DNA from: Tridacna crocea
Taxonomy: Eukaryota > Mollusca > Bivalvia > Cardiida > Cardiidae
DNA: 64,000 bases
NCBI GenBank assembly: GCA_943736015.1
Contig: OX031070.1
Location: forward strand, 26,247,673 to 26,311,672
Reading direction: 5' to 3'
The position numbers and the translations under genes were made by a program. Below are positions 1-64,000 of this stretch, in pieces. How positions within the stretch are numbered: position 1 is the stretch's first letter; each line of letters opens with the position of its first letter. The notes under the pieces were generated by a model, which saw only the letters and a list, made by a program, of their open reading frames with translations, was not told the origin of the DNA and searched no databases.

Positions 1-97
1 GAAAAGGAGGAAATGCTGTGTAACAACAGTACTGTATAACAAACCTGATTATTCTTTTTGAATTCCAAAAAATTACCAAATCTGTGTTGTTGAGTAC

Positions 98-292
98 TTT
101 AACCCCTTACCAACTTATTATGCAATATCCAGATTTTAGATTTTCCGGAATTCAAAGCATTTCTCCTTTTTCCACAATGTTTTCTTACTCTATTAAAGTC
201 AAGTTGCATTTTTTGAGTCATGTTTATTTTTGTCTGCAAATGCTTAAATGCTTACATTTTAGACAAGTCTAAAATCTTTTCATTTAGTAAAA

Positions 293-298
<6 letters not shown>
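98..298 (+). mobile_element. TTAA-1 MITE, decayed
   Basis: TTTAACCCCTTACCAA start, half a hairpin core (ATTTCTCCTTTTTCCACAATG) and a readable long arm; the left half of the core is lost. Bases 1-25 are a fragment of another core. Confidence 0.6.

Positions 299-323
<25 letters not shown>
299..323. repeat. (CA)n microsatellite
   Basis: About twelve CA units. Confidence 0.97.
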
Positions 324-348
324 TAAAAATAGAAATACATGTACATCT

Positions 349-465
349 GAGCCATACTATGTGAAAAGGAGGCTTCATGCATCCGCAAAAAAAAAAAGGG
401 AGAAAAAAACTATCGACCAAGGTCAGCCTGCCAGGTCAGCACAGTCCGGCCTGGGCCAAAACTTT
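349..465. mobile_element. family I inverted-repeat element, fragment
   Basis: GAGCCATACTATGTGAAAAG end and the AAGGTCAGCCTG..GGTCAGC segment match the elements at 35.2 and 36.0 kb. Confidence 0.45.
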
Positions 466-555
466 AAGCTGTTGATAAATTTTCTGCATGCTCAAGGACC
501 AGTGCATCTCATGTAGATTGGTTGTTATACACAATGGATTTCATGGACCCATAAT

Positions 556-745
556 CAGATCTCCAGACAGAGGGAGTGATTTTGATTTCGAAATTGAAAA
601 TATTTATTTCTGTTCACTAAACCCTATATTGTGGTTACTCATTAGAATCGGCTCATCGAGCCGATTCTAATGAGTACCCACAATATAGGGTTTGAAAGAA
701 GAAATAATGAATTTGGAATACAGTCATTCCTTTTCTGGAGCTCTG
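556..745. mobile_element. CAGAG palindromic (hAT-like) MITE
   Basis: CAGATCTCCAGACAGAGGGA end and ..TCTGGAGCTCTG end, with central hairpin GGTTACTCATTAGAATCGGC either side of CTCATCGAG, about 629-690. Confidence 0.75.
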
Positions 746-749
746 TGTA

Positions 750-991
750 TTAACCCTTTACTCCATAGATACTCATTTCTACACATTGCTTGTAGGAGCC
801 TAAATGGAAAACTTTTTGGCAAAAGGTGAAATTGCTCGTGAAGAGCTCGTGATGAGCAATTTCACCTTTTGTCACAATGTTTTCTATGCTATCAATTGGT
901 ATCATTTACACATAAGAAACGGCTTCATCCTTGCTGTCATTTAGGGTCAATTAGAGATGCCATAGAAATGCCTTATGGGGTAAAGGGTTAA
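750..991 (+). mobile_element. TTAA-2 MITE
   Basis: TTAA 750-753 and 988-991 flank CCCTTTACTCCATAGATACT ... GGGGTAAAGGG. The core hairpin AAGGTGAAATTGCTCGT has a small internal duplication at its tip (CTCGTGAAGAGCTCGTGATGAG). Confidence 0.85.
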
Positions 992-1067
992 TACTATCGT
1001 GACTTGGATGGTATCATGCACCCCTTTTGCAAGAGCACGGCTCAATTATGCTTTTTCCTTGTTGTAG

Positions 1068-1260
1068 GATAGTGGAACCACTGCATTGCTGGAAAAGGTT
1101 GGAGAAATACACTCAACTGCTGACTTTCCGAGGCAGCAACAGACCTCACACACGGACCTCATCTTGAACACTCGAGATCTACAGGACATGATGGATCTGT
1201 CAGATAGTCTGTTTTCTAGTCTCAACCAGCCATTTGCCTTTCCCAACCCTAGAGAATTGT
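1068..1260 (+). CDS. Mondo: Mondo exon (first in window)
   Basis: Follows TTGTTGTAG and ends before GTAAGT. Begins in phase 0 and ends with one base of the next codon. Encodes a segment with DLILNTRDLQDMMDLSDSL and then QPFAFPNPRE, which resembles the LSDTLF..QPF..P.P.E stretch that precedes the acidic motif in vertebrate Mondo proteins. Confidence 0.85.
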
Positions 1261-4200
1261 GTAAGTATAAATTTTGTTTATTTTATTTGCTAATTGGTAA
1301 CTGTGTTTTCTTTTTAACCCTTTACCAAACAATATTATGTCTTATAACCGTTGAGGAAAAGTCTAAATTCAACACATGGGAAAAGGAGAAAACGCTAACT
1401 AGGACAAGTCCAAAATTTTATCCTTTGGTCAGGAGAGCCTGAATTTATAAAGTTCCTGAACTTTGAAAATACATGTAGTAATGTGTTATTCTGTAAGTGA
1501 AAATGCTCTGATTTTCGACTTTATTTAATGAAGTCTTTTCATTACCTGATGAATCAAATTTACAGTAGACAATACCCATGTAGTACCAGCAACACGAACT
1601 AAGGTTGCGTACATCAGTAAAATCAAAGTAAAACAAAGCAACAAGAGAAATTTCTCCTTTAACCCATTACTCCATAGATATTCATTTCTACACATTGTTT
1701 GTAGGAGCCTTTGGAAAACATTGTGGCAAAAGGTGAAATTGATCGTCACAAGCAATTTCACCTTTTGTCACAATGTTTTCTATGCTATCAAAAGGTATCA
1801 TTTACACATAAGAAACCACTTCATCCTTGCTGTTATTTAGGGTCAATTAGAGATGCCATAGAAATGCCTCATGGGATAAAGGGTTAAAGCTGTTAAAATG
1901 TTTTCCCTTTTGCCACCATGTTTTCTATAGCAGTTTTATGCTTGAGGTGAAAAGAATGTCTGCAGGAGGTTGTTTGTTAACTTTGTTTCCTATCTTACAG
2001 CTGGCCTTGGCTATGCCGATTTTATTCAGCCAGGACTGGTTCAACTTCAGCCTAATTTAGATGATTTTATGGATTTAGATCCCTTGACTGGTATGTGTGT
2101 TTTTTAATCAAACGAAAAACTACATATTCATTTGAAATAAAAAGACATGTGAACCAGTTACCACACAATCCCTACTTTTGATGCCCTTAGAAAGAAGCTA
2201 TTAGAAAACATTGTGGGAAAAGGAGAAAATGCTGGTAACCAGCATTTTCTCCTTTTCCCACAAGGTTTTCTACCCTTCACAAAATAAATTTCAAATTTTC
2301 AGTCACTTCTCTTTTGTCATCTGCAAACGCTTTCGATTTGGACAAACTGAAAATTCCGTTGTTTGGTAAGGAGTTAAAGTCTGTGCATTGCTTTGGAACT
2401 CTACTCTGTTGAATCCTTTATTTATCCTCGGAAACTGATGACTGGTCCAAATTGAAAGCTATTGCAGATGACAAATATGGCTCAAGTGCTACAAGAATTA
2501 GTCATGCAATAGGTTAAAAAACAAATTTTGTGGAAAAAAGAGAAAATGGTGGTAACAAGCATTTTCTTTTATTATACCCCCGCAAACAAAGTTTGTGGGG
2601 GGTATACTGGAATCAGCCTGTCTGTCGGGTGTGCAGTTGGTCTGTCCGCAAAATCTTGTTAGGACAAGTCCTCCTACAGTTTCAGTCCAATTTGCTTGAT
2701 ACTTGGCAGAAGTGTTCATTAGGAGCTGTAGATTTGCAAGACGCAAATTTTGTGAAAATTCCATCAAGAATTACAGAGTTATTGCCTCTGATTTGACTTA
2801 AAAATGCTTTTCCAGGCAACTCCTCCTACAGTTTCTGTCTGATTCACTTTAAACTTGGCAGAAGTGTTCATTAGGAGTTGTAGATGTGCAAGACACAGCT
2901 TTCATGAAAATTCTATGAAGAATTAATGAGTTATTGCCACAATGACATGAAATATAGGGGCGGGGGTATTTATCACCTTTAGTGATAGTTATTCTAGTTA
3001 GATCGTATTTTCAGTCTTCAAAGCCTAGCTGTGAAAGCTCAGTCAGTAGTACTTAGGGCTCAAGGGTTCCACCCTTGGCTTTCTTTCCGAGTATTAATGA
3101 TAGTCAATGCAACGCAATTCATTCCTCTCACTGCTGACTATTGGCCAGTGGCTTTGAAAGAAAACTACTAGTACTCGTAAAAAAAAGCTCAGAAAAACAT
3201 GGATATATAACTTACATAATGTTGAAAATGGCATTAAACACCATACAATTAATCAGCAGTCAGAGTAGAAATCAATTTCTTAACCCTTGAAGCGCCTAGA
3301 AGTTGTTTTTGTGGTCAGAAGTAGATCAAAAGCATATTTGCACAAAACGTGTACCCTGATCTTCCATCTGCACTGCCCTCTTTGCGGAGTCTGCACAGAC
3401 AAAATGCAGTCATGAAAATGCAAATTATCTTGGTCTTATTGTATATTGAAAATATTTATTCAGTTTATTCAGCACTATGAGGATCTCTTGAAATATTTCT
3501 TTTTATAGATATGCTGACTGGATCTAGGTCTCAACAAATTCTCAACCAGACAGAAAACACCCAGGTAAAAGTTTGAATCTCTTCGAAGCAAAAATATTTT
3601 TAACTTGTGGAATTTCAGAGCTCCTGCAGACATTATATAAATGATGGCATAAATCATGATAGGTCATTTATGAAATGGAAAATGCTGGTTACCAGCTTTT
3701 CCAACAAAATTTTTGAAAGGTTGGCATGGCTTGGTCGTTAAGACTTGGAATTGTTAAGCTTTTATGTACACCTGTACCAAATGACCTAATTTCAGACTTG
3801 AAAGCATTTGCAAATGACGAATCTTGGTCACATGGTGGAATTTGTGATGGGTTTTTTTTTTATCATTTAAAATTGATTATCCTGGCTGATCTGATAGAAC
3901 TCAAATAATATTGAAAGTGGCAGAAACCAATGTTACAGCTCTAATAAACAATCTCAAGATTTCACAACTCTGAAAAAGAGGTCTATTGAAAATATTCTGA
4001 GAAAAGGAGAAATGATGGTAGCCAACATTTTCTCCTTTTCCTGCAATGTATTCTACCCTTCCAAAAGTAACTTTTATATTTAGTCAAATATTTTTGTGGT
4101 ATTTGTCGAAGACAATACCACTATGAGTTCAAGATTGAATTTTGATAACCATGTATCTTATTTTGTGCAAAGCCAAAGGAAATAAACCCAGTTAAACTCA

Positions 4201-7200
4201 TTTTTTCTCAGGCAAATGAGTTTTACGGTGGCACTCAGATATGTAATTTGAAATGGCATATTAAAATACATTGGGCGAGGCCATCGATTGTTGAGATGCT
4301 TATTTTTTATTGAAAAAAGCTTCTCTCGCTCATAGCCTTTTATGGGCGCAATGATACAAATTTGCCAAATGACCTTGGGCTTTTTCGTTCCAAAACCAAT
4401 TCGTTCCATAGCTTGTTCGTCCTATGATTGCGCGCTACTCCATTTGATTGCTCATGAATATTTATAGATAGAGGTAATTGATTGTAATGTTGGAAATTAA
4501 ATGTAAAAGGCTAGAGATATTCCAAAATTATAGTTTTCAGGAACAAACTTAATTTTGTTCGATATATCAATAGGATTTTTCTCTCTATTCGTCATGCATC
4601 CTATTGTCGGGGGGCGTTACTCCTGCTTCCTACTAATGATCAAAGGGAAACCACTTATACAAAAGTAAACGAAACTGTCATGAATACTCTCCCTTAAACC
4701 GAAAAGGTATTCATTTGCTTAGTGGGTTGACTTTTAAGCCAGTATTTGAACAATATGTCACGGTTTCTTTCAAACTGTTAATTCCACACAATAGGGTTTC
4801 CTTGACAAATACCACTTCAGCGTTCCCAGCGCTTTGATTTATGTTGGCTAGAAGTGTTTTCATTTCATACCACTCATAAGTATTGCTATCTGTTACAGGG
4901 TTTAAGCCATTACCACACAATCCCTACTTTTGACGCCCCTGAGAAAGAAGCCTTTAGAAAACATTGTGGGAAAAGGAGAAAATGCTGGTAACCAGCATTT
5001 TCTCTTTTTCCCACAATGTTTTCTACCCTTCACAAAACAAAATTGAAATTTTCAGTCACTTTCATTTTGTCGTCTGCAAATGCTTTCAATTGGACAAACC
5101 TAAAATTTTGTCGTTTGGTAATGAGTTAATCTTTTATACAGTAAGTAAACACTGGGTTTTTTTCACAGGAGTGTCCTTGGGCAAGACACTTCAGAGCCTA
5201 GCCTAGTACTGGTGAAACCCAGGAAACATGAATATGTGAACTGTCGCCGTGATATGACTGAAATACTGTTGAAAGCGGCGTAAAACACCATTCAAAAAAA
5301 AAAAAAAAAAAAGTAAGTAAGTATCTGAAGGTGTAAAGATCACTTTGTACAATAATGGGTAGAGTTTTACTGTATTGTTTGCAATGTAGTCAGCGGATAT
5401 TATTTATTTTAGATTGGCCAACATTCGAGGCTGCAGCATGGTGACGTAGAAATGGCACTTTCACCCCAAATCATGACACAAGATCAGATGATAAATAGCC
5501 AGCTTAGTCAGCCTAGTCCAGGGCCGTCCAACAGAATGATGGTGGATAGTCCAGGACTAACACCTACTGCTGGGTTATCGGAGCAGGATCCTATGATTGT
5601 TGACACAGAGAACTTTATTCTGAATCAGCTGCAGATTCTCCAGCAACAAAAACAAGCGGAGGATATAAATCGACAACTCCAGCAACAAAGGATATTGGAG
5701 ATGCAGAAAAAGAAACAGCAAGAAGAACAAGAGCGTCGCCAGGAACAGGAGAAACAAGAACAGCAGCTGCGAGAGCAGCAAAAACAACAACAGCAGCAAC
5801 AACAGAGAACACAGTTACAGGCTTTGTTACAAAATAAGCCTCAGATAAAGAACATTTTGACAGCTATGGGTGAAAATGCTCCAGCATTACTAGAGGAGTT
5901 ATCCAAAAGTTTACAAGCCCAACAGGCTCAGAATCAGCCGAGTTTGTCTGGGACTACGACTCAAACCCCTGTCTTGAATCAAAGTCAACCAAAGGCTCAA
6001 GTACAAATGCAAAAGACTAATATGAGTCAAAGTGCAAGTCAATTTCAGCTGCAACTTAGCTCAGGGAATTCAACTTTGATTTCAAATCTGTTAAACTCAA
6101 ACAATCAGACTACACAACAGAAACCTGTTCAGTCTATTAATAATACCAGTGCCAAAGCAAGACTTAGTAGCAAGTTTGCAGGTAATACCAGCATTCTTGC
6201 AGCTCTGACTGCAGATGAAAAGCAATCAGCTTTGAGCAAAATGACTGTGCAACCAGCAATAGTGAATAATAAACTTAAACCAGCTCTCAGTGCTAATATT
6301 CCAAAGAAAGACAATGCAGGCTTTACAATTCCAACAGTGAGTGTCCTTCCTCTTTGCTCTTTAATTTTTTACTACACCATCCCATTTATTAACGATTTTG
6401 AAAGATAAGGTTTTTGAAAACATTGTTGATAAAGGAGAAAATGCTGGCAAATAGCTTTTTCTCTTTTCCCACAATGTTTTCTACCCTGTCAAGGAAAGAA
6501 GTCATATGAGCTACATTCAATTTTTCATCAGGAAATTTGGATAGGTCTCTTTTTAGCTCCACTTGCCCAAGGCCAGCAGACCTGTCATGGCCTGGTGGCT
6601 GTTGTGTGTCAGTGTGTTAATGCGTCTGACCATGCTTGTAATAATTTTTATTTCAGGCATCTTTTCTGAAACTACCCGTCCAAATTCAGTGAAATTTCAC
6701 AGAAATTATCCTACCATGGTCCTCTTCAGAATTCGTTGAAGAATTTGATTCCTACAAAAACTCTGGTTGCTATGGCAACAAAACTAAAAAAAATTAACTT
6801 TTTTATAAATATTTTTTTTTTTAAAACTTCAAGGCCTAGGGCCTCTGAATTTGGCATGTGGCTTTATCTAATGGGCAGTTACAAGTTTCTTTATAATACA
6901 GGCCAGGGATCAAAATTGTCTCCATCCCAGGGATCACAAGTTTAACATGGGTTTCCATTTATGGTCTTTTCAATTAAAACATTAATTAAGGTAAAAGCTT
7001 GAAAAGCCAGTGGAGTGATACAGGGCCATCATGGCTGTCTTGTTTTTGTGTTAATCAGGGTGAACATGTTTCATTTTCTCAGCATGGAATATACCATGTG
7101 AAAATGACAAACTGTTTTTTGTGAGCAATTGCTCATTTTTCCAGCATTGTTTTCCAAAGCTGTCTACTGAAGAATTATTTGATTTTTGCTGTAATTAATC

Positions 7201-10200: not shown

Positions 10201-13200
10201 ACCAGATGACAAAATTTTAGACTGTTCCAAATTTAAAGCAGAAGCAGACAACAAAATTAATGTGTCTCAAAAATGGAAATTTGTCTTGGGAAGGGTAAAA
10301 AACATTGTGGGAAAAGGAGAAAATGCTGGTTACCAGCATTTTCTCCTTTTCCTACAATGATTTCAGAAGGCTTGATGGATTCTTGAAAACCAGGGATTTC
10401 TTGGTAAAGAGTAATCTGAATTCTGGCTCCGTGATGACACTTCAGAGCCCTGTCCTGTGTGTCACATGACATATAAGTGAGCTGTTGGCATAATATAACT
10501 GAAATACTGTTGAAAGAGGTGAAACATCATACAATGAAACTAGTCACAATGATTTTTGGATATTAAGGTGGTCAGTATGCATTGACCTTTTTAGCAACTC
10601 CTCATTTTTTTCATTTCAACTTAAGGCAATTTCAAACTGATATTAGTGAACACTGACAAGTAAAAATGTTTTTTCGTTTGACGAATCATTTGTTCATTCG
10701 TTCACTTGCTCGTTCACTCACCCATTCACTCACTCACTTTGAAGACGAGGGAAATGATCTTCGTGAAACTGCCACTAAAGGCATTAAAAGACATGCTTTT
10801 CTGTTTTTCAGCTTACTCCAGATTTTCCTACCAGTGTATTACTAGCAGCAGCCAATCATGCTTTCAGTTCAAACTCTTTAACTGTGAAAGAAGTTTTACA
10901 GAATGTTTCTCTACCAGGTATGTTGCGACAGTGGTGTTAATTTCTTTGTATAGTGTTTTATAGCATTTTCAACATTGTTTCAGTCATTAGATTGTCCAGA
11001 GTACCTACCAGTGATTCCCTAGAGGAGTTCCCTTTACCAGTGCTTTGCACAATTATTTGTCTCTGGCCACTAGATGCTTTTCTTCATAACCATTGCGTGG
11101 TGAGGAAGAAATGAATCCTGTTGCAGTTACTATCATTAACTTGTCTTGTCAGTGTTTAGAGCACTATAATCAACCTATACTTGTCCAGATTGAAAGCATT
11201 TGCAGACGACAAAGTAAATGGGACTCAAAAATTGAAATTTGTTTTAGAAAGAGTTGAAAAAATTGTGGGAAAGGGAGAAAATGCTGGCTACTAGCATTTT
11301 CTCCTCTTCCCACCATGTTTTCAAAAGGATTCTTCCTCGAGGTTGTCAAAAGTTGTCATTGTGTGGTTAAGGGTTAACAAAAACAAGCTTATATAACCCT
11401 TTACCACACAATCCCGACTTTTAACGACCCTCAGAAAGAAGCCTTTTGAAAACATTGTGGGAAAAGGAGAAAATGCTGGTAACCAGCATTTTCTCCTTTT
11501 CCCACAATGTTTTCTACCCTCCACAAAACAAATTTCAAATTTTCAGTCACTTTTATTTTGTCGTCCGCAAATGCTTTCAATTTGGACAAGTCTACAATAT
11601 TTTTGTTTGGCAAAGAGTTAAACTTGGTGTCCGTGTAGATAGTGATAAATTATATTTTCAGCATCACCCAATACCTCAGTTATATTGGCAAGCTCCTCTC
11701 AGCAGAAGCCTGAAGGTGTTATTTCACCCGCCCCATCCCCATCACCAACCCCCATGTTTTCTCCAACGGCTGAAACAAGTCCTGCATCCGTCAGCTCACC
11801 AGTCTCCAGCTCTATGGATGAATATCATTACACCTTGGTGGGTATTATTTGGTCATTGAATATTACTCTTGACAAAATTAAAATGGATATTTTCAGTCAG
11901 AATCAAACTCAATACTTGTTTAATTCGTTTCCAAACGACAAAATTTTAGGTATGTCGAAATCGAAAGCATTTACAGTCAGCAAAATAAAAGTGACTGAAA
12001 ATTTGAAATTTGTTTTGTGAAGAGTAGACAACATTGTGGGAAAATGAGAAAATGCTGATTACCAGCATTTTCTCCTTTCCCCACAATGTTTTCTAAAGGC
12101 TTCTCTCTCAGGGTCATCAGAAGTAGGAATTGTGTTTTAATGGGTTAATTGGGTTAATAAATATTTTTACATTTATGGAGGGGCAACAGAACTTGTTATG
12201 GGGGGGGGGGGGGGGGGGGGGGGGAGGCAAAACTCATGAATATTGTTATACTCAGGCAGAAGGAATGTTTTCAGGGGTAAACTGGAATCCGCCTGTCTGT
12301 CCGTGTGTTCGTGTGCTAGTATGTCTTTCTGTGTACAAAATAGTGTCAAAGCGCTGGCAGGGATATAAAGTCACATTCAGAGACAGCTCTAGTTTTTCCT
12401 AGGGCCATCTATTCCAGCATATAGGTAAAGTTTAATCCAACTTGGCATATACTTTGACTTTCCCATGTGCATTGAGTCTCATCTTGTACATTATCCTTCT
12501 TTAACATGGAGGGTTAGGTAGTGAATAGATTTTTAGCTCACCTGAGCACATAGTGCTCAGGGTGAGCTATTGTGATCGATCGTTGTCCGGCGTCCGTCCG
12601 TGTGTCCGTCCGTCCATCCGTCCGTCCGTGAACAATTACTTAAAAATTCTTCTCCTCTGAAACCGCCCAACAGATTTCAGTGAAACCTCACAGAAATGAT
12701 CCTTAGGTGATGCACTTTCAAAATACTTCAAAGATTTGAATTCCATGGAGAACTCTGGTTGCCATGGCAAGCGAGAGAAAAAACTTTAAAAATCTTCTTG
12801 TCCCAAACCGTAAGGACTAGAGCTATCATATTTTGCATGTAGCATCATCTAGTGACCCTCTACCAAAATACTTCAAATTATGGCCCTAGTGTTGAAAATG
12901 GCCCTATGTTGTGGGTTTTTGGATTTCACATGGAGATAAAGAAGGAAATCTTTAAAAATTTTCTTGTCCCAAACCATAAAGGCTAGAGCTCTCATATATG
13001 GCATGTAGTATCATCTAGTGGCCCTCTATTAAAATACTTCAAATAATGGCCCTAGTGTAGAAATTGGCCCTATGTTGTGGGTTCTCGGATTTCACATAGA
13101 GATAAAGAAGGAAATCTTTAAAAATCTTCTTGTCCCAAACCGTAAGGGCTAGAGCTTTCATATTTGGCATGTAGCATCATCTAGTGACCCTCTACCAAAA

Positions 13201-25200: not shown

Positions 25201-28200
25201 CTCCTTTTTCCCCCACTATATTTTCAAGAGCATACATCTTCAGGGTTGTTTTATAAAGAGTATAACTTTACATTTGCTGATCTCTTTTTAGAAGGTGCAT
25301 TTTCTTTTCTTATCTTTTCAGTCTGGGTTTGAAGTTCTGCACTCTCTGATACCTTCTCTGAGCTCAAACCCCAATGCTAAAGTTAGCAAGGCAGCCATGT
25401 TGCAGAAAAGTTAGTATTTACCCCTTGTCAAACATTTGTCTATTTTAACCCTTAACTCATTATCAAACGACAAAATCTTAGGTTTTCCAAAAAGAAAACA
25501 TTTGCAGATGACAAAAGTGACTGGAAATTAAAAAGTTGTTTCGTGAAGGGAAGAAAACATTTTGGGAAAATGAGAAAATGCTGGTTACCAGCATTTTCTC
25601 CTTTTCCCATGATGTTTTCTAAAGGCTTCTTTTTCAGGGGCGTCAAAAGTAGGGATTGTGTGGTAATGGGTTAAAGTGCTGAATTAAAGCAAGAGACACT
25701 TTTGAAATAGGAAAAAGCATTTGAAATATTGCTGTACCACGGGTTTTTTTTTTGCAAGAATATGTAACAAAATCGTGGACACTGTAGATCTAAGATCAGA
25801 CTGCTGGTTCTGTGCAGTCTGATCTTGATCTACACTGTACTCAAAAACAAGTTAAGTCGGTTCAAGTGCTTTAAGGATTAATAACCCCAAGGAAGTAAGC
25901 TTTTGCAAAGTTTTTAGGGAAATAAGAAGCATTTTCTCCTTTTGTTAGTATTATTTTCCCTTTAAAAAATGAATGAAAATATTTAACTCTTTACCAAATG
26001 ACAAATTTTGGACTGGACCAAATTCAAAGCATCTGCAGACAACAAATTACGTTCTCGTAATAATTATGATGTTTCTGACTTTGATAGAGTAGAAAATATT
26101 GTTGGAAAAGGAGAAAATGCTGGGTACCGACATTTTCTCCTTTCGTACAATGTTTTCCAAAGGCCGCTTCCTCGGTCGTGATAGCTAGGGTGATAGCTGG
26201 GGATTGTTTAGAAAAGGGTTAAATTTTTTCCAGGTAACATGAAAAATGTGGCTGAAGTATTGAAATTTATTTTTGGAAGGTTTACCAGCATTTTCTCCTT
26301 TTCCTCTGATGTTTTCAGAAAACCTATCCTCAGAATCATTAAATCTCTTGATTTTGTTGTAAAGGAATGTCTGACATACAGAAAGATGCATTTGTACTGC
26401 CATGAGTTACAACCTATGAGTGCAGGGCTTTTTATCAGCCATGCATTTTCTCCTGTTCCCACAGTGATTTTCAAATGGACCTTTACCCATTACCCCATAA
26501 GGAATTTCTATGGTATCTCTAATTAACCCAAAGTAACAGCAAGGATGAAGGCGTTTCTTATGTATATGACACCTTTTGATAGCATAGAAAACATTGTGGC
26601 AAAAGGTGAAATTGCTCGTCACAAGCAATTTCACCTTTTGCCCACAATGTTTTCTAAAGGCTCCTACAAGCAATGCGTGGAAATGAGTATCTATGGAGTA
26701 AAGGGTTAAAACATTGGTGGTAGTTGCTAATTTGATACCTGTTTCGGCAGACTTTTTTCTGGCCATTTGGAAATAAAGTCGAGTCAATACTGGTGTGATA
26801 TAGCCAGGAAACACATGCATTGGTGCACTTACTGTCATGATAAACTGCAATACAAGCAAAACATTGCATTGTTTGATAAAAGTCCATATATAACTGTGAT
26901 TTTCTTTGTTGTGTGAACAGCTGCTGAGTATTGTAGAAAACTGAAGACTGAGAGAGCACAGATGCAGAAGGAAGCAGATATACTCAAACAAGAGATCGGC
27001 TCTCTCAATCAGGCAATAAGGTATGTCGGTAGCGTTTGACTATATACTTGGAATCAGCATTTTTGCCTTGTTCTACAATGTTTTCTACCTTGTCAAAGGC
27101 TGCTGTAATCATTTTAACTACTTTCATTTTGTTTTCTGCAGATGCTTGCAATTGATAGTGGACATAATTTTGTCAGTCTGTAAAGAGTTGATAATTTACC
27201 CAACAATTCCCCATTTTAATGACTTTTTGAAAGAAACCTTTTGGAAACGTGGCGGGAAAGGGAGAAAATGCTGGTAACCAGCATTTTCTCCTTTTCCCAC
27301 AATGTTTTTAATCTATGATGGACAATTCAAATATTTGAGCCACCTTTAATTTGTTGTCTGCAAAGGCTTTCTATTTTGCCCAGTCTGAAATTTTATTGTC
27401 TGGTAAAGAGTTGATAGAGTTCGTTTACTGTTACTGGGACCTTTGGCAGTGAACAAAATGCAAAAATTTACTACTGTAAATGTGGATATTATTGCAGGTC
27501 TTGAATTTCAAGAATACCACAATACTGACTTTGGGCGGAATCACATTTCTGTGAATTTTTTTTATCATGGTCATTGAATTTAACAAATTCCCATTTTCAC
27601 TTTGATCAAATGTATTTAAATATCTAAATAAGCAGTGTGAACCACCACTGGACTGGTGTTCTGGTTGATTTTGATAAAAAAAAAAAAACACTCGTTGAAG
27701 TCGGCATGGGTCCCTGTCAATTTTTTCCACATGACCCGATGTTTAGATGAAATACACCTTTGTCTAGCTTAGATTTGCACCGAAGGATACCTTTGGATTT
27801 TTATAAATATGCGAAAACTGCAAAGATTTTCACAATGCAAACATTTCCGGTTTTACAGTCAAAATAACCTTGATAATCTGTTTAAAAGTCATATAATGGA
27901 CAAGTCTTCACCATACAAGAAGATTTTAGCCTTGTCCACATTGAAAGTATTTGCTGATGAAAAATTCAGTTGGACTAAAATGGTAGGAGTTGTCTTTGGA
28001 AAGTTTGCAAACATAGTTAGAAAAAAAATGTTGGTTATCAGAGCTTTTAGTGCTCAAGTTGAGCCTTCGTGATTGTTCTGTGTCCAGCATCTGTCGTCTG
28101 TAGTGTTTCATCAACTTTTACCTTATGTATGTTCTGTAGGCTGTATTTGCTGTCTGATTCTCATGAAAATTGGTCAGAATGTTTGCTTTGTGGTATCTTA

Positions 28201-31144: not shown

Positions 31145-31148
31145 CCTT

Positions 31149-31374
31149 AAATCTTTACCATACAATCCCGACTTTTAACAACCTTGAGAAGGAAGCCTTT
31201 TGAAAAAATTGTGGAAAAAGGAGAAAATGCTGTTAACCAGCATTTTCTCCTTTTTCTACAATGTTTTTTACCCTTCACAATACAAATTTCAAATTTTCTG
31301 TCACTTTTATTTCGTCATCTGCAAATGCTTTTAATTTGGACTGGTTTACAATTTTGTCATTTGGTGAAGAGTTA
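31149..31374 (+). mobile_element. TTAA-1 MITE
   Basis: CTTAAATCTTTACCATACAA start; long arm ends CATTTGGTGAAGAGTTAA. A short-arm fragment follows to 31432. Confidence 0.85.
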
Positions 31375-31942
31375 ATGTTTTCAGAAGCCTTTTTTCTAGG
31401 GTCCACAAATGAAGATGTTTTGGTAAAGGTTTAATATGCATTTTGTTGGCCAATCAAATGGTTTCTTTGGGTTCAGAAGAACTGAATTTTGAATGATTGG
31501 TGAATAGTGCCCAGTAAATCTGACTGGTTGAGTTGATATGTCATGACCAGTTGGAAGCCTGGTCTCTGAATTTCAGGAATAGTGAAATGAGATTAAAACA
31601 TGGTTGTTGAATGCATGACTTTGTGCCATATTTTTGCCCCAAAATTGTGAACTTGTATAGTTTGGGGACAAATAAGGGCATTTTATACAGCATGGTTGTG
31701 CTTTTATGTAGTGGGTGGATTGTGCTTGATGCTTTAAAGTTTTACATATTTGTGAATGGAAAGAGGACATATGACTTTTTGATACCAGTTTTGCCGGGGA
31801 TGATGGTAAAGTTGAATGATGGGCTAGATATCAAGGGCACTGGAAATGTTACTTTTAGATATGTGGAAAATCTGTGATCTCGTTTTGGCAGCTTAATTAC
31901 TATCCCTTATGAGTTGTAATTGTATGTTTTCCCTGCCTGTGT

Positions 31943-36348: not shown

Positions 36349-36518
36349 GATAAAAGTAGTGATTTTGAATTTAAAATTGAAAATGTTGATAATTCTGCGC
36401 TAAACCCTAGGTTATGGGCACTCATTAGAGACGATTCTAATGAGTACCCACAACATAGGGTTTGAAAGAGAAATAATGAATTTAGAATACCCATCACTCA
36501 CTCTTATCTGGAGCTCTG
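36349..36518. mobile_element. CAGAG palindromic (hAT-like) MITE
   Basis: CAGAGCTCCAGATAAAAGTA and ..CTTATCTGGAGCTCTG; loop shortened to GAGACGATTC. Confidence 0.85.
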
Positions 36519-36794: not shown

Positions 36795-37019
36795 TTAAAC
36801 CTTCCCAAACAACAAATTTTGGACCTTTCCAAACCAAAAGAGTTTGTGGACGACAATTTCAGATTTGGACAAAATGGCAAAAAGTTCTTAAAAAGGGTAG
36901 AAAACACCGTGGGAAAAGGAGAAATTGCTCGTTACGAGCAATTTCTCCTTTTCCCACAGTGTTTTCTAAAGACTTACACTGCAGACACATAAAAACCAGG
37001 GTTTGTTTGGGAAACAGCT
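36795..37019 (-). mobile_element. TTAA-1 MITE, GAAATTGCTC core subfamily
   Basis: TTAA 36795-36798, ends CCTTCCCAAACAACAAA and GTTTGGGAAACAGCTAA; core GAGAAATTGCTCGTTACGAG. Confidence 0.88.
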
Positions 37020-37251: not shown

Positions 37252-37311
37252 AAATAGATGGAAAAATACCTTGCTCAAAAGACTGAAAGCTTCACCAAAC
37301 AGTCCTGCATT

Positions 37312-37539
37312 TAACTCTTTACAGCGCAACAAAATCTTAGACTTGACTAAATTGAAAGCAGTTGCAGACGACAAATTTAAGATAGCGAAAATGGCATAAT
37401 TTTTCCTTGATAGAGCAGAAAACATTGTGGGAAAAGGAGAAAATGCTGGTTACCAGCATTTTCTCCTTTTCTTACAATGTTGTCAAAAGGTTTCTTTCTC
37501 AGGGTCGTTAAAAGTCAGGATTGTGTGGGAAAGAGTTAA
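37312..37539 (-). mobile_element. TTAA-1 MITE
   Basis: TTAA 37312-37315 and 37536-37539. A decayed core follows at 37545-37640. Confidence 0.88.
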
Positions 37540-40461: not shown

Positions 40462-40690
40462 TTAACTCTTTACCACACGAGAAAATTTTAGACTGGTCCA
40501 TATTGAAAGCATTTGCAGACGACAAAATAAAGGTGACTGAAAAATTGAAATTTGTTCAGGGAAGGGTAGAAAACACTGTGGGAAAAGGAGAAAATGCTGG
40601 TTACCAGCATTTTCTCCTTTTCCTACAGTGTTTTCAAAAGGCTTCTTTGTCAGGGGCGTCAAAAGTAGGGATTGTGTGGTAATGGGTTAA
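40462..40690 (-). mobile_element. TTAA-1 MITE
   Basis: TTAA 40462-40465 and 40687-40690. Confidence 0.92.
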
Positions 40691-44661: not shown

Positions 44662-44887
44662 TTAACCCTGTACTCCATAGATACTCATTTCTACGCATTG
44701 GTTGTAGGAGCCTTTGGAAAACATTGTGGCAAAAGGTGAAATTGCTCGTGACGAGCAATTTCAAGTTTTGACAATGTTTTCTATGCTATTAAAAGGTGTC
44801 ATATACACATAAGAAACGGCTTCATCCTTGCTGTTATTTAGGGTCAATTAGACATACCAAAGAAATGACGTATGGGGTAAAGGGTTG
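44662..44887 (+). mobile_element. TTAA-2 MITE
   Basis: TTAA 44662-44665; core GGTGAAATTGCTCGTGACGA; right end mutated to GGGTTGA. Confidence 0.85.
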
Positions 44888-45480: not shown

Positions 45481-45533
45481 GTCGTCTGCAAATGCTCTCA
45501 ATTTGTACTAGTCTAGAAATTTTGTCGTTTAGT

Positions 45534-45752
45534 GTTACCTATCGCACACTAAGCCTAGTTTTCACAACCCAAAGTAAGGAGGTCTTTGAAAACATTGTGG
45601 GAAAAGGAGAAAATGCTGATAACCAGCATTTTCTCCTTTTCCCACAATGTTCACTACCGTATCAAAGACAGAAATCATTAGAGCTACAAATAATTTTTCG
45701 TCTGCAAAAATTCTCAATTTGGACCAGATTTTGTCGTTTGGTAAAGAATTAA
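45534..45752 (+). mobile_element. TTAA-1 MITE
   Basis: Left end worn (GTGTTACCTATCGCACACTA), core complete, right TTAA about 45749-45752. Confidence 0.78.
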
Positions 45753-45978
45753 CCTTTTACCACACAATCCCTTCTTTTGACGACCCTGAGAAAGAAGCCT
45801 ATAGAAAACAATGTGGGAAAAAGAGAAAATACTGGTAAACCAGCATTTTCTCCTTTTCCCACATTGTTTTCTACCCGTCACAAAACAAATTTGACATTTT
45901 CAGTCACTTTTATTTTGTTGTCTGCAAGTGTTTTCAATTTGGATAAGCCTAAAATACTGTCGTTTGGTAATGAGTTAA
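45749..45978 (+). mobile_element. TTAA-1 MITE
   Basis: TTAA 45749-45752 shared with the copy on the left and 45975-45978 shared with the copy on the right. Confidence 0.9.
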
Positions 45979-46202
45979 CCCTTTCCCAAACAAGCCCTGG
46001 TTTTCACGTGTCTGCAGTAAAAGTCTTTTGAAAACACTGTGGGAAAAGGAGAAATTGCTCGTAACGAGCAATTTCTCCTTTTCCCACAGTGTTTTCTACC
46101 CTTTTTGAGAACTTGCTGCAATTTTCTCCAAATCTAAAATTGTCGTCTGCAAACACTTTTGGTTTGGAAGAGTCCAGAATTTGTCGTTTGGTAATGAGTT
46201 AA
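45975..46202 (+). mobile_element. TTAA-1 MITE, GAAATTGCTC core subfamily
   Basis: CCCTTTCCCAAACAAGCC start, core GAGAAATTGCTCGTAACGAG, right TTAA 46199-46202. Confidence 0.9.
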
Positions 46203-46411
46203 AAAGGATTTTCGTGCTGAAAGCGTCCAACTCATCTATAAACTGCACACAGACTCGAGAAATAATTATATTTCCGAATATAGCAAATCCTATTAGGCAT
46301 CCTAATGGAATAGAATTATATGATATAAGTTTCCTATTAAAGTAATTAACACGTCTGGTTTAATGCTAGACTTTTTGGCATCAATAAAGGACGACACGAT
46401 TTGACATGTAG

Positions 46412-46840
46412 GCCTAATAGCTCTAAATTCAGACTTTAGCCTCCTTTATTTTTCCTCCACATAGCCCTAGTCGTTTAGAGTAGAGCTATTACAAATTAAG
46501 TCTTCGGTCATTTGAAGGTGTGGGTTCGCGCGCTGGCCCACTTGCTCTAGGCCTAATAAGCTCTAAATTCAGACTTTAGCCTCCTTTATTTTTCTTCCAC
46601 ATAGCCCAAGTCTTTGAGAGTAGAGCTTTTAAAAATTAAGTCTTAGGTCATTTGAGGGTGTGGGTTTGCGTGCTGGCCCACTTGCTCTAGGCCTAATAGC
46701 TCTAAATTCAGACTTGAGCCTTCTTTATTTGTCCTCCGCATAGCTCAAGTGGTTGAGAGTAGAGGTTTTAAAATTTAAGTTTTTAGTCATTTGAGGGTGT
46801 GGGTTTGCATGCTGGCCCACTTGCTCTCGATCTAAATTCA
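46412..46840 (+). repeat. three tandem tRNA-like units of about 139-140 bp
   Basis: Units begin GCCTAATA at 46412, 46551 and 46691. Each holds an A-box-like TAGCYCAAGTSGTTKAGAG and a B-box-like GTGGGTTCGCGCGCTGGCCC, spaced as in a tRNA with a long variable arm (Leu/Ser type). Anticodon stem is not convincing, so these are tRNA-derived repeats rather than a working tRNA. Confidence 0.7.
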
Positions 46841-55809: not shown

Positions 55810-56113
55810 CCCTTAGCCAAACGACAAAATTTTGGACTCAACCAAATTGAAAGCATTTGCAGACGACAAAATAAATGTAGCCCAAATGATGATTTTTGTC
55901 TTGAACTCATTACCATGCGACAAAATTTTAGGTTTGTCCTAATCGAAAGCATTTGCAGACGAAAAAATAAAAACGACTGAAAATTTGAAATTGTATTTCG
56001 AGAGAAAAGGAGAAAATGCTGGTTTCAAATATTTACTCCTGTTGCCACAGTGCTTACTAAAGTCTTTTTTCTCAGGGTAGTTATAAGTGGGGATTGTTTG
56101 GAAATGGTTTAAT
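55806..56113 (-). mobile_element. TTAA-1 long arm plus a second decayed copy
   Basis: A half copy (55806-55903) begins at the TTAA ending the previous copy, then a copy starting CTCATTACCATGCGACAAAA with a damaged core. Confidence 0.6.
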
Positions 56114-56529: not shown

Positions 56530-56763
56530 TTAACCCTTTACTCCATAAGGCATTTCTATGGTATCTCTAATTGACCGTAAATAACAGCAAAGATGAAACC
56601 GTTTCTTATGTACTAGTATATGGCACCTTCTGATAGCATAGAAAACATTGTGGCAAAAAGGTGAAATTGCTCGTCCCGAGCAATTTCACCTTTTGCCACA
56701 ATGTTTTCCAAAGGCTCCTACAAGCAATGCGTAGAAATAAGTATCTATGAATTAAAGGGTTAA
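56530..56763 (-). mobile_element. TTAA-2 MITE
   Basis: TTAA 56530-56533 and 56760-56763; core GGTGAAATTGCTCGTCCCGA. Confidence 0.87.
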
Positions 56764-57447: not shown

Positions 57448-57899
57448 TTTAACCCTTTACCACAGAATGACGACTTTTAACACCCTTGAGAAAGAAGCCT
57501 TTTGAAAACACTGTGGGAAAAGGAGAAAATGCTGGTAACCAGCATTTTCTCCTTTTCCCGAAGTGTTTTCTACCCTATCAGGATCAAGTTTAATTATTTG
57601 AGTCGTATTTTAATCCTTTCCCAAACACTCCCTGGTTTTTACGGGTCTGGAATAGTAGCCTTTTGAAAACATTGTGGGAAAAGGAGAAAATGCTGGTAAC
57701 CAGCATTTTCTCCTTTTCCCACAATGTTTTCTACCCTATCATAGACAGAACTCCTCTTTTCAGTAAGAGTTGATTTGTCGTCTGCAAATGCTTTCAATTT
57801 GGTCTAGTCCAAAAGTTTGTCGTTTGGGAAAGGGTTAATTGTCTGCAAATGCTTTTTATTTGGACAGGGTCAAAAATTTGTAGTGTGGTAAAGGGTTAA
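57448..57899 (+). mobile_element. TTAA-1 MITE containing another TTAA-1 MITE
   Basis: Outer copy: 57448-57609 (short arm, core, start of long arm) and 57838-57899 (TGTCTGCAAATGCTTTTTAT to GGTAAAGGGTTAA). The inner copy interrupts its long arm. Confidence 0.88.
57610..57837 (+). mobile_element. TTAA-1 MITE nested in another copy
   Basis: TTAA 57610-57613 and 57834-57837 with TTTCCCAAAC / GTTTGGGAAA ends; removing it and one TTAA rebuilds a continuous long arm. Confidence 0.92.
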
Positions 57900-59345: not shown

Positions 59346-59370
59346 TTCTTTGATTCAATGATGATTTCTC

Positions 59371-59441
59371 AATTCCAAGACAATTCCTTTGATTGGCTGG
59401 GGCAGAATGTCCCAGCCAATCAAATAGCTTGTCTTGGAATT
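59371..59441. repeat. inverted repeat with CCAAT motifs
   Basis: TTTGATTGGCTGGG and CCCAGCCAATCAAA arms, extended by AATTCCAAGACAA / TTGTCTTGGAATT. Confidence 0.85.
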
Positions 59442-59452
59442 TAGGCTTTTAC

Positions 59453-59681
59453 TTAACTCATTACCAGATGACAAAATTTTACACTGGTGCAAATTGAAAG
59501 CATTCGCAGACGACAAAATAAAAGTGACTGAAAATTTTAAATTTGTTTTGTGAAGGGTAGAAAACTTTGTGGGAAAAGGAGAAAATGCTGGTTACCAGCA
59601 TTTTCTCATTTTCCCACAATGTTTTCCAAAGTCTTCTTTCTCAGGGTCGTCAAAAGTAGGGATTGTATGGTAATGGGTTAA
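59453..59681 (-). mobile_element. TTAA-1 MITE
   Basis: TTAA 59453-59456 and 59678-59681. Confidence 0.92.
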
Positions 59682-59684
59682 AAT

Positions 59685-60180: not shown

Positions 60181-60187
60181 AAAATCA

Positions 60188-60398
60188 GGGCCCATATTAA
60201 GCAACCATTCTCAAGAAAGTTCTTGGTCTGGATGACAAGAATTTTCTAAATTTGAAAACAAGACACCTTCTGATTGGCTAAACCGAAAGCTAAACCTTTC
60301 GGTTTAGCCAATCAGAAGTTGTGTTATTTTCAAATTTAGAAAATCTTGGAGAATAAGACTAAGAATATTCTTAAGAGTATTTGGTGGATACTAGTACG
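60188..60398. mobile_element. CCAAT palindromic MITE
   Basis: CTTCTGATTGGCTAAACCGA and TCGGTTTAGCCAATCAGAAG arms at about 60268-60319. Confidence 0.88.
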
Positions 60399-60404
60399 GA
60401 CCTA

Positions 60405-60594
60405 GGGTTTGTATTCATTTACCATTCTTAAGAACATTCGTCGTTTTATTCGCCATATTTTTTTCAAACTTTTAAAGTAACACAACTTCTGATTGGCTAA
60501 ACCTTTCGAATGGTTTAGCCAATCAGAAGTTGTGTTACTTACAAACGTAGAAAATTCTGGAGAATAAGACAAAGAACGTGAATACTGACCCAGG
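60405..60594. mobile_element. CCAAT palindromic MITE (array unit 1)
   Basis: TTCTGATTGGCTAAACCTTT and AATGGTTTAGCCAATCAGAA arms. Confidence 0.88.
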
Positions 60595-60715
60595 ACATCC
60601 TAATTTTAAATAACGCCCTTGAACTATATATTAGCTTACGGAATATTGCGCAGATTGTTAGATTATATTGCAGAAAAAATACTTTTAGCTCTGCCCTATT
60701 CGATGTTCTCAATCC

Positions 60716-60944
60716 TTAACCCTTTCCCAAACGACAAACTTTTGGACTAGACCAATTCGAAAGCATTCGCAGACGACAATTCAACTCTTGCTGAAAAGAT
60801 GATTTCTGTCTATGATAGGGTAGAAAACATTGTGGGAAAAGGAGAAAATGCTGGTTACCAGCATTTTCTCCTTTTCCAACAATGTTTTCAAAAGGCTACT
60901 TTTCTAGACCCGTAAAAACCAGGGATTGTTTGGGAAAGGGTTAA
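60716..60944 (-). mobile_element. TTAA-1 MITE, TTTCCC-end subfamily (array unit 1)
   Basis: TTAA 60716-60719 and 60941-60944; ends CCCTTTCCCAAACGACAAA / GTTTGGGAAAGGG. Confidence 0.93.
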
Positions 60945-61199
60945 GCTGTTTAGAGCGACCCGGTGACCTTTTGTGGACAGGTAAGATCAAGATCAGACTG
61001 CACATACCGTGTAGATAGATCTTTTATCTTCACTGTCCGATAAAAAGGTATCTTTCATGCTGAAAATATCTTTAAAATAGCAAATTCTAGGTTTCACTAT
61101 GGGTTTGAAAGTTTCACTTTATTTATCTAACAGTTAAGGCTGAATTCGAAGGCATAATTATAGTTTTTACGTGTACATTTCGTTAGTTCACAACAAATA

Positions 61200-61427
61200 C
61201 ATCTTCTCAAGCCAAGGGTGAAAATCCACTACGCTAGTCTACCCTTGGCGGATCGAGCCTGATTTCGACAGTCCCGCTATACGCATTTTCATTGGTTACA
61301 GCTAGCTGTAACTGCACGAATCAAATCGCTCGTAGCATTTCATCTTTGATAAAAATCGGATTATTACATCTTCGCTAGCCAAGGGTGATGATCTACTAAG
61401 ATCCCGTAACCTTGGCTGGCGAAGATG
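61200..61427. mobile_element. family H element (array unit 1)
   Basis: CATCTTCTCAAGCCAAGGG and CCTTGGCTGGCGAAGATG ends; shorter interior than the 33.8-kb copy. Confidence 0.85.
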
Positions 61428-61679
61428 CACCAAACATTTCTCAATACAAAAGTCAAAAGTATCTGTTTTTTAACATTTTAAGTATTTGTAAAGGCGTGGT
61501 CTCAAAAAATAACATACACTAGTATATCACGTGACGCGGTGTAAATGCAAGGCTTAAAACGTACCATAAATACTGTTTTATCCCCACGGGGCTAAGATTA
61601 TTGGCAAATCGGCTTTCAAGCTTTTTTTCTTCCTGGTCTAGGACTGCTCTACCATTTAGAGTCCCTATCAGGATATCGT

Positions 61680-61745
61680 ACAGGGTAGAGTCAAGATCAG
61701 ACTGCAAAGAATGTGCAGTCTGATCTTTTACTCTAGCCTGTCCGT
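61680..61745. repeat. TTAA-3 hairpin (array unit 1)
   Basis: GTCAAGATCAGACTGCA / TGCAGTCTGATCTTTTAC. Confidence 0.8.
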
Positions 61746-61767
61746 GACATGTATGCTGTAGAATAAT

Positions 61768-61933
61768 CTTAAGAACATTCGTCGTCTTATTCGCCATAAT
61801 TTTTCCAACATTTAAAGTAACACAACTTCTGATTGGCTAAACCTTTCGAATGGTTTAGCCAATCAGAAGTTGTGTTACTTACAAATGTAGAAAATTCTGG
61901 AGAATAAGACAAAGAACGTGAATACGGGGTCAG
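61768..61933. mobile_element. CCAAT palindromic MITE (array unit 2)
   Basis: Same arms as unit 1. Confidence 0.88.
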
Positions 61934-62055
61934 GACATCCTAATTTTAAATAACGCCCTTGAACTATATATTAGCTTACGGAATATTGCGCAGATTGCTA
62001 GATTATATTGCAGAAAAAATACTTTTAGCTCTGCCCTATTCGATGTTCTCAACCC

Positions 62056-62284
62056 TTAACCCTTTCCCAAACGACAAACTTTTGGACTAGACCAATTCGA
62101 AAGCATTCGCAGACGACAATTCAACTCTTGCTGAAAAGATGATTTCTGTCTATGATAGGGTAGAAAACATTGTGGGAAAAGGAGAAAATGCTGGTTACCA
62201 GCATTTTCTCCTTTTCCAACAATGTTTTCAAAAGGCTACTTTTCTAGACCCGTAAAAACCAGGGATTGTTTGGGAAAGGGTTAA
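62056..62284 (-). mobile_element. TTAA-1 MITE (array unit 2)
   Basis: TTAA 62056-62059 and 62281-62284. Confidence 0.93.
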
Positions 62285-62539
62285 GCTGTTTAGAGCGACC
62301 CGGTGACCTTTTGTGGACAGGTAAGATCAAGATCAGACTGCACATACCGTGTAGATAGATCTTTTATCTTCACTGTCCGTAAAAAGGTATCTTTCATGCT
62401 GAAAATATCTTTAAAATAACAAATTTTAAATTTTCACTATGGGTTTGAAAGTTTCACTTTATTTATGTAGCAGTTAAGGCTGAATTCGAAGGCATAATTA
62501 TAGTTTTTACGTGTACAATTCGTTAGTTCACACCAAATA

Positions 62540-62769
62540 CATCTTCTCAAGCCAAGGGTGAAAATCCACTACGCTAGTCTACCCTTGGCGGATCGAGCCT
62601 GATTTCGACAGTCCCGCTATACGCATTTTCATTGGTTGCAGCTAGCTGTAACTGCACGAATCAAATCGCTCGTAGCATTTCATCTTTGATAAAAATAGGA
62701 TTATTATACATCTTCGCAAGCCAAGGGTGATGATCCACTATCATCCCGTAACCTTGGCTGGCGAAGATG
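62540..62769. mobile_element. family H element (array unit 2)
   Basis: Ends as in unit 1; right part reads CATCTTCGCAAGCCAAGG. Confidence 0.85.
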
Positions 62770-63129
62770 TACCAAACATTACTCAATACAAGGATTTAAA
62801 TTGTCAAAAGTATCTGTTTTTTAACATTTTTAAGTATTTGTAAAAGCGTGGTCTTAAAAAATAACATATAGTAGTATATATATCACGTGACGTGGTGTAA
62901 ATGCAAGGCTTAAAACGTACCATAAATACTGTTTTATCCCCTAGGGGCTAAGAGAATTCAATTATTGGCAAATCGGCTTTCAAGCTTTTTTCATCCTGGT
63001 CTAGGACTGCTCTACCCTTCAGAGTCCCTATCACGGTATCGGACAGGGTGGAGTCAAGATCAGACTGCAAAGAATGTGCAGTCTGATCTTTTACTCTAGC
63101 CTGTCCGTGACATGTACGCTGTAGAATAA

Positions 63130-63294
63130 TCTTAAGAACATTCGTCGTCTTATTCGCCGTAATTTTTTCAACTTTTAAAGTAACACAACTTCTGATTGGC
63201 TAAACCTTTCGAATGGTTTAGCCAATCAGAAGTTGTGTTACTTACAAATGTAGAAAGTTCTGGAGAATAAGACAAAGAACGTGAATACGGGGTC
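63130..63294. mobile_element. CCAAT palindromic MITE (array unit 3)
   Basis: Same arms as units 1 and 2. Confidence 0.88.
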
Positions 63295-63418
63295 AGGACA
63301 TCCTAATTTTAAATAAGGCCCTTGAACTATATATTAGCTTACGGAATATTGCGCAGATTGTTAGATTATATCGCAGAAAAAATACTTTTAGCTCTGCCCT
63401 ATTCGATGTTCTCAACCC

Positions 63419-63646
63419 TTAACCCTTTCCCAAACGACAAACTTTTGGACTAGACCAATTCGAAAGCATTCGCAGACGACAATTCAACTCTTGCTGAAAA
63501 GATGACTTCTGTCTATGATAGGGTAGAAAACATTGTGGGAAAAGGAGAAAATGCTGGTTACCAGCATTTTCTCCTTTTCCAACAATGTTTTCAAAAGGCT
63601 ACTATTCTAGACCCGTAAAAACCAGGGATTGTTTGGGAAAGGGTTA
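63419..63646 (-). mobile_element. TTAA-1 MITE (array unit 3)
   Basis: TTAA 63419-63422 and 63643-63646. Confidence 0.93.
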
Positions 63647-63902
63647 AGCTGCTTAGAGCGACCTGGTGACCTTTTGTGGACAGGTTAGATCAAGATCAGA
63701 CTGCACATACCGGGTAGATAGATCTTTTATCTTCACTGTCCGTAAAAAGGTATCTTTCATGCTGAAAATATCTTTAAAATAACAAATTTTAAATTTTCAC
63801 TATGGGTTTGAAAGTTTCACTTTTTTTATCTAACAGTTAAGGCTGAATTCGAAGGCATAATTATAGTTTTTACGTGTACAATTCGTTAGTTCACACCAAA
63901 TA

Positions 63903-64000
63903 CATCTTCTCAAGCCAAGGGTGAAAATCCACTACGCTAGTCTACCCTTGGCGGAACGAGCCTGATTTCGACAGTCCCGCTATACGCATTTTCATTGGTT
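63903..64000. mobile_element. family H element, cut by window end (array unit 3)
   Basis: Left half only. Confidence 0.8.

Follow-up and report, generated by a model that had tools for sequence, protein, structure and literature searches.

The closest published case found in the open-access literature searched is that of the CMITEs of the coral Acropora. As PMC2872659 describes them, these miniature inverted-repeat transposable elements (MITEs) produce TTAA duplications, have CCCTTT-type ends and are related to piggyBac; their internal region is more conserved between families than the terminal inverted repeats (TIRs), they form tandem arrays, and an empty allele with TTAA is known. These features recur in a MITE family found in a 64,000-bp stretch of the genome of the bivalve Tridacna crocea (assembly GCA_943736015.1, contig OX031070.1, positions 26,247,673 to 26,311,672 of the forward strand), hereafter the window. 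The CMITEs, however, are about 100 bp long, with ~1,600 copies estimated in A. millepora, and neither a palindrome nor a hairpin is mentioned in the main text of that paper, whereas the T. crocea element is ~229 bp long, contains a 67-nt palindrome and is present, by extrapolation, in roughly 0.5-0.7 million near-full copies. This abundance and the palindromic core are what is unusual in the family.

The piggyBac element of Trichoplusia ni and piggyBat of Myotis also have a TTAA target, short TIRs and asymmetric ends (PMC11707139), and a T. crocea transposase described below aligns with both. They are protein-coding, and their palindromes, which like the subterminal repeats are bound by the transposase, in the case of the palindromes by its C-terminal domains, are short and subterminal (19 bp and about 12-14 bp; PMC11707139), whereas the palindrome of the MITE is central and 67 nt long. 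KolobokP and other Kolobok elements duplicate TTAA as well, are abundant in bivalves and form multimers, but they have RR...YY ends and a transposase of another group (PMC9587614), in contrast to the CC...GG ends found here. In Aedes aegypti, MITEs similarly occupy a large share of an animal genome; there, 143 MITE families together make up about 16% of it (PMC3422177), whereas in T. crocea one family and its diverged sister account for roughly a fifth. A bivalve-wide study found MITEs to be a considerable part of the genome and left them unclassified (PMC10294476), in contrast to the present family, which is tied to piggyBac.

The joint explanation proposed here, with a probability of about 0.9, is that the family is a non-autonomous piggyBac MITE that has its ends in common with a clade of larger piggyBac elements of the same genome, represented by the C7 and C15 elements described below, and is most likely mobilised by a transposase of that clade. 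As judged from sequence comparison, the left arm of the MITE corresponds to the TIR and the first subterminal repeat unit of the clade (C7, C15 and ten more places), and its right end carries the short TIR of the same clade; both statements form part of the joint estimate. The MITE would then probably borrow the enzyme of a larger piggyBac that has matching relatives in the same genome.

Architecture, borders and abundance of the family

Iterative profile searches started from one copy (window 4909-5128) show that the window contains 116 non-overlapping copies or fragments of this TTAA-bordered MITE, 53 on the plus and 63 on the minus strand. More than half of them (62) are near full length, extending from profile position 8 or lower through at least 210 of 217, and all profile matches together cover 20,373 of the 64,000 bp (31.8%). 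An earlier note on this DNA had recognised the family but put it at 80-90 copies and about a quarter of the window; the share is nearer a third. The element of ~230 bp with TTAA borders that it described agrees well with the majority consensus of 229 bp (both TTAAs counted). Its layout, a hairpin between a short and a long arm, also holds, with a left side of 55 nt, a palindrome at consensus positions 56-122 and a right side of 107 nt; the hairpin, given as 60 bp, measures 67 nt. The palindrome consists of two 33-nt arms and one centre base, with 33 of 33 pairs complementary in the consensus, and the RNA fold of a representative copy (4902..5129) has a z score of -10.6 relative to shuffles. 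The view that a single family is present stands for the main family; mixed in with it is a second family, diverged but with the same core.

The consensus has the end TTAACCCTTTACCACAC, with TIRs that match at 15 of 17 positions when TTAA is included. It thus contains short TIRs and the CC[C/T]T end motif that is stated for piggyBac MITEs in PMC2872659. Among the 68 copies that could be aligned across both ends (a looser cut, positions up to 12 through at least 200), most have 5'-CC...GG-3' ends, and C directly follows TTAA in 53. The ~229-bp consensus has no coding capacity and encodes no transposase. The same had been claimed for the window as a whole, and none of the 8 long open frames scanned against Pfam scores above the curated cut-off for a transposase or any other family.

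In the same 68 copies, TTAA is exact at the 5' border of 47 and at the 3' border of 42; its single columns are kept in 56-61 copies, the outer T and A in 58-60. The commonest base just outside TTAA is found in merely 28 and 27 copies, and the outside columns are near random. Empty sites were reconstructed by joining the flanks of six nested copies with one TTAA and realigning them to the family consensus. Three of the six realign over both flanks with a single TTAA and a gap-free junction; of the rest, one realigns on one side, one shows a gap of 3 nt close to the junction, and one has 26 gap positions. Empty sites with a single TTAA, the absence of which would have spoken against piggyBac in the earlier note, are therefore present. 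Among the 53 adjacent pairs with defined facing borders, 11 have a border TTAA common to both neighbours, and 9 of these overlap by exactly four bases. Because TTAA is symmetric, a TA duplication within an obligatory TTAA target would look identical; a four-base TTAA duplication is the simpler reading.

The host genome comprises 1.049 Gb in 31 contigs. It was sampled in 20 stretches of 10 kb at round coordinates (200 kb), which yielded 280 matches with a combined coverage of 22.6% (45,277 of 200,000 bp; bootstrap 95% interval, 16.9-28.5). All 20 stretches carry at least one match, with a coverage of 1-48%, and 127 copies are near full length by a cut looser than that used for the 62 in the window. 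Reversed and Markov-1 versions of the same 200 kb give no profile matches. Exact-word counts, which cover the whole genome and are independent of the profile, point in the same direction: for one subfamily, the left end (32 nt) is counted 51,072 times, almost equally on the two strands (25,486 and 25,586), the same word without TTAA (28 nt) 58,406 times, of which 51,072 directly follow TTAA, and a 45-nt hairpin word 88,271 times. Neither the end nor the hairpin words occur in the genome when read backwards, and a 27-nt hairpin word had no match in the viral and prokaryote contigs scanned.

The three words are found 10, 13 and 23 times in the sample, against 9.7, 11.1 and 16.8 expected, so that the sample is representative to somewhat rich. 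The number of near-full copies is estimated at 0.67 million from the sample and at 0.65, 0.57 and 0.49 million after scaling by the three word counts; the genome share scaled in the same way is 22, 19 or 17%. We infer that the genome contains roughly 0.5-0.7 million near-full copies, an extrapolated figure, and that the family makes up about 17-23% of it. The window itself is richer than average in the subfamily with the counted end, with 9 exact 32-mers (entry at 7592-7817) against 3.1 expected.

piggyBac elements with matching ends

The piggyBac DDE domain (PF13843) has 118 matches in the genome, and 26 of the 30 best contain no stop inside the match. Flanks were read 951 b upstream of 20 matches and 1,101 b downstream of 14, followed by further stretches around four. 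Ten of the 20 upstream stretches (L031, L033-L038, L042, L044 and L047) contain a left end of one of four other piggyBac types, TTAACCCTTTATATACGA, TTAACCCTTTCAGTGCGGG, TTAACCCTAGTCATGCGGG and TTAACCCATTTATGCCTAGCG. Ends beginning with TTAACCC are thus common among the piggyBac elements of this genome, and the MITE start CCC[T/A]TT fits among them.

Two elements come much closer. The C7 element (C7:18507265-18513640) is 6,376 bp long, with TTAA at both ends and a perfect 18-bp TIR. Its transposase frame (C7:18510562-18511659) is free of stops and lies in an open frame of 508 aa; the catalytic part was translated over 467 aa without stops, and the first exon of the putative gene was read by eye. 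The transposase aligns to piggyBat (9c0f, E = 5.8e-39) and piggyBac (6x67, E = 8.2e-33), the alignment including the blocks VDEAM, FFDNFF and GGVDLNDQ, which presumably hold the catalytic aspartates. Farther upstream of the frame lies TTAACTCTTTCCCACACAATCCCGACTTTTTACGACCCC, which corresponds to the left arm of the MITE. This left end contains four ACAATCCCGACTTTT subterminal motifs at 35-bp spacing, of which the MITE keeps one, and the right end, TGTGTGGGAAAGAGTTAA, completes the 18-bp inverted repeat. The C15 element (C15:28718224-28711023) begins with TTAACCCATTACCGTTCAATAACGCCTTTTGACGCCCC and has a TIR of 15/18.

Over the left 44 nt, C7 and C15 share 36 and 33 identical positions with the best MITE copy and 34 and 29 with the consensus. 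In the controls, six ends from four other piggyBac families share 21-25 of 44, and shuffled ends at most 25-29. By hand count, the right TIR matches the MITE consensus at 15 of 17 positions in C7 and 14 of 17 in C15. The subterminal region of C7 (L067:45-400) has 12 matches in the genome, itself included, and a comparison of coordinates by hand places all 12 at 1.3-9.1 kb upstream of a PF13843 match that has the same orientation. Scores are almost equal among four PF13843 matches of 624 aa (C10, C18, C3 and C4) and identical in three of these. The larger relatives that share the left end and terminal repeats thus encode a piggyBac transposase and none of another superfamily, and C7 and C15 are candidates for the autonomous piggyBac with similar ends that the earlier note had proposed to look for. 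Its assignment of the MITE to the piggyBac superfamily is supported by the TTAA empty sites, the common ends and the PF13843 transposase.

The C15-type family of 492 aa comprises five copies with nearly equal scores; two of these were compared, with an identity of 99.75% in 2.0 kb of upstream sequence and of 98.6% in 1.1 kb of downstream sequence. It was considered as the parent, given the MITEs beside its transposase, and rejected: these MITEs are insertions in the intron and the 3' part, and the true ends of the element lie farther out. Copies of the MITE are found in the first intron and 3' part of this family in L040, L043, L053 and L063, so that relatives of the probable helper carry the parasite along with them. 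Near other transposases, some halves of the MITE also look, by eye, like nested insertions.

Several points weigh against the proposed origin. In the parts of C7 and C15 read, nothing corresponds to the palindrome or to the portion of the right arm internal to the TIR, apart from nested MITEs, so that the MITE probably did not arise from either by internal deletion alone. Left-end identity is 82% at best, which makes the C7 and C15 elements relatives of the parent and not the parent itself. C7 is the only copy found with its exact end. Flanks were read for part of the 118 transposase matches, and a closer partner may exist. Finally, the case is built on sequence and not on observed transposition.

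Other origins of the TTAA-bordered copies account for less of the evidence. A Kolobok transposase could have produced the borders, as Kolobok elements are found in molluscs and duplicate TTAA (PMC9587614); the 5'-RR...YY-3' termini of Kolobok elements (PMC9587614) differ from the CC...GG termini of the MITE, and the elements with MITE-like ends encode piggyBac, which makes this origin extremely unlikely, although no search of the genome aimed at Kolobok was made. It is scarcely more probable, though still a very slim chance, that the family is of the Tc1/mariner type with a TA duplication, or that a TA-inserted hairpin is nested in a TTAA element. Many cores do have TA next to them at one or both edges, but conservation at the two borders extends to all four TTAA bases (56-61 of 68 copies in each column). 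As for a nested hairpin, 10 near-full copies of the window have gaps of at least 12 nt and none of these removes exactly positions 56-122; with no near-full window copy lacking precisely the palindrome, this candidate was rejected for these copies. That the density reflects a window artefact or a tandem satellite in place of a dispersed family can be dismissed with near certainty: some copies are chained, three lie in a tandem duplication and the window has its excess of subfamily 32-mers, but matches are present in 20 of 20 sampled stretches and the 51,072 exact ends are divided almost evenly between the strands.

Under mobilisation by the C7/C15 clade, the transposase would bind the terminal and first subterminal motifs of the MITE and excise it in trans at its TTAA borders. 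The MITE would then reinsert at other TTAA sites, often at or inside older copies, the family itself supplying many such sites. Copy number might rise through cut-and-paste combined with repair or replication of the donor sites.

The palindromic core

Divergence was determined for 226 near-full copies with at least 180 aligned positions, drawn from both the window and the 20 sampled stretches. The hairpin arms differ from the consensus by 7.8 and 7.2%, the left arm by 19.7%, the right arm by 19.2% and the terminal repeats by 16.7 and 16.6%. These figures are to be read with the profile in mind: it was built from the family itself, and selecting near-full copies by it may have enriched for intact cores. 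The low divergence of the core persists when CpG columns are excluded and when pairs are chosen by another region. In pairs with a right-arm distance of 0.2-0.3, the hairpin differs by 11.5% and the left side by 26.4% (pair distances left out two of the three tandem-duplicated copies). Within one subfamily, core and right arm diverge by 3.9 and 9.7% (60 copies) or by 5.0 and 9.6% (19 copies). Single-copy changes are also rarer in the core (40/3,629 vs 104/6,130, p = 0.019; 26/1,146 vs 77/1,922, p = 0.009), being reduced less strongly than overall divergence. Between the main and second families, identity is 58/67 in the core, 22/38 in the left arm, 60/83 in the right arm, and 14/17 and 13/17 in the terminal repeats.

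The two halves of the core also co-vary. Two-sided changes that preserve pairing number 151 among 270 copies, against a mean of 44.9 and a maximum of 65 in 300 shuffles; the window alone has 48 among 87 copies, against 14.4 and a maximum of 25 in 1,000 shuffles. The shuffles ignore relatedness, and 81 of the 151 changes trace to five pairs that define subfamilies (63, 69, 76, 81 and 86). Taken together, the low core divergence and the half-to-half co-variation between subfamilies suggest that the palindrome is maintained mainly in transposing copies. Within single copies, pairing is 0.856 vs 0.821 expected, so that the halves decay almost independently, which tells against such maintenance; some correction between core halves or between copies is possible.

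If the palindrome is maintained, it would be kept since copies with a good palindrome transpose better. By analogy with piggyBac and piggyBat, it might serve as an internal site that binds the C-terminal domains of the transposase, or it might act by its folded form. The further proposal that the core is a selected cis-acting module, working in one of these two ways, and that it made a piggyBac parasite into a hyper-amplifier is tentative, and we consider it rather doubtful. A somewhat better prospect, if short of an even chance, is that an inverted duplication dating from the origin of the MITE survives in the core as a passive relic, with its symmetry kept by half-to-half repair or conversion between copies and not by selection on transposition. 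Single-copy pairing slightly above independent decay fits such a relic, as do the derivation of 81 two-sided changes from subfamily-defining pairs and the modest drop in single-copy core changes, which is also expected from correction between halves or copies. Less easily reconciled with it are the divergence of the core, which at all distances examined is lower than that of either TIRs or arms, also with CpG columns excluded and in pairs chosen by another region, and the contrast between families of 58/67 identical positions in the core and 22/38 in the left arm.

Other features of the window and significance

Coordinates of individual copies are given in Table 1. The second family has 9,789 exact 33-nt ends genome-wide. 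At about 60400-64000, the window contains a tandem duplication with a unit of ~1.34-1.36 kb, one MITE per unit, and 97.5 and 96.7% identity over about 0.9 kb.

Table 1. Copies of the main and second MITE families and related features (window coordinates)
Feature	Position	Strand	Remarks
Representative near-full copy, TTAA to TTAA	4902..5129	+	40 scored places elsewhere in the genome, 90-97% identity
Palindromic core of this copy	4955..5025		35-nt arms, 1-nt centre, 97% complementary
Near-full copy	11393..11621	+	Adjoins exon-like stretch 11649-11856
Near-full copy	59453..59681	-	
Copies in the ~1.34-1.36-kb tandem duplication	60716..60944, 62056..62284, 63419..63647	all -	
Four-copy cluster	36800..37010 (-), 9506-9718, 20609-20783, 45986-46199		Core ...GAAATTGCTCGT...
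Nested copy	55902..56112	-	Clean empty site; own right border now TTCA
Copy inserted into the hairpin of an inverted copy	31147..31375	+	Clean empty site, one TTAA
Copy nested in another copy	37311..37539	-	Clean empty site; left end nearest to the C7 element (36/44 nt)
Nested copy	57610..57838	+	One TTAA in the empty site; gap of 3 nt near junction
Copy at the terminal TTAA of another copy	40462..40690	-	One flank alone realignable
Nested case	24923-25151		Realignment with 26 gap positions
Chain of three copies	45533..46202	+	One TTAA common to each neighbour pair
Second family, diverged	750..991	+	Same kind of core; TTAACCCTTTACTCCATAG end
Second family	1659..1887	+	
Second family	26485..26695	-	Profile match
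Second family	44676..44884	+	Profile match
Second family	56533..56744	-	Profile match

The exon-like stretches at 1068-30856 belong to what we take to be a Mondo/MLXIP-like gene; no Pfam family matched the scanned pieces of these stretches. None of the 8 exon-like stretches recognised in this first gene, read as exons without a database match, overlaps a MITE copy, and the statement that copies avoid exons is borne out to that extent. The earlier note had counted two genes in the window, of which one was recognised here. Searches of the window found no Rfam match at gathering thresholds and, with ARAGORN, no tRNA.

Another element, unrelated to the MITE, is found at 619-697, 16287-16365, 18636-18718 and 36402-36467, as well as in L013, L014, L022 and L023; it contains a nearly perfect palindrome, AAACCCTATRTTGTGGGTACTCATTAGAATCGGCTC, and has apparent inverted outer arms, GAGCTCCAGA...AGGGAGTGAT. 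The window also contains two tandem arrays with a 166-bp period and different units, at 12780-14902 (12.8 copies) and 43630-44506 (5.3 copies), and a third with a period of 140 bp at 46409-46827.

At roughly a fifth of a gigabase animal genome, a single non-coding family is unusually successful. Because a matching piggyBac is present in the same genome and the conserved palindrome can be deleted, the cause of MITE explosions becomes directly testable in this system. Double-stranded RNA might arise from the long hairpins, several of which are situated between the exon-like stretches of a gene. If the core is indeed a selected module, the conserved cores of the CMITEs in corals would represent the same strategy, whether convergent or shared.

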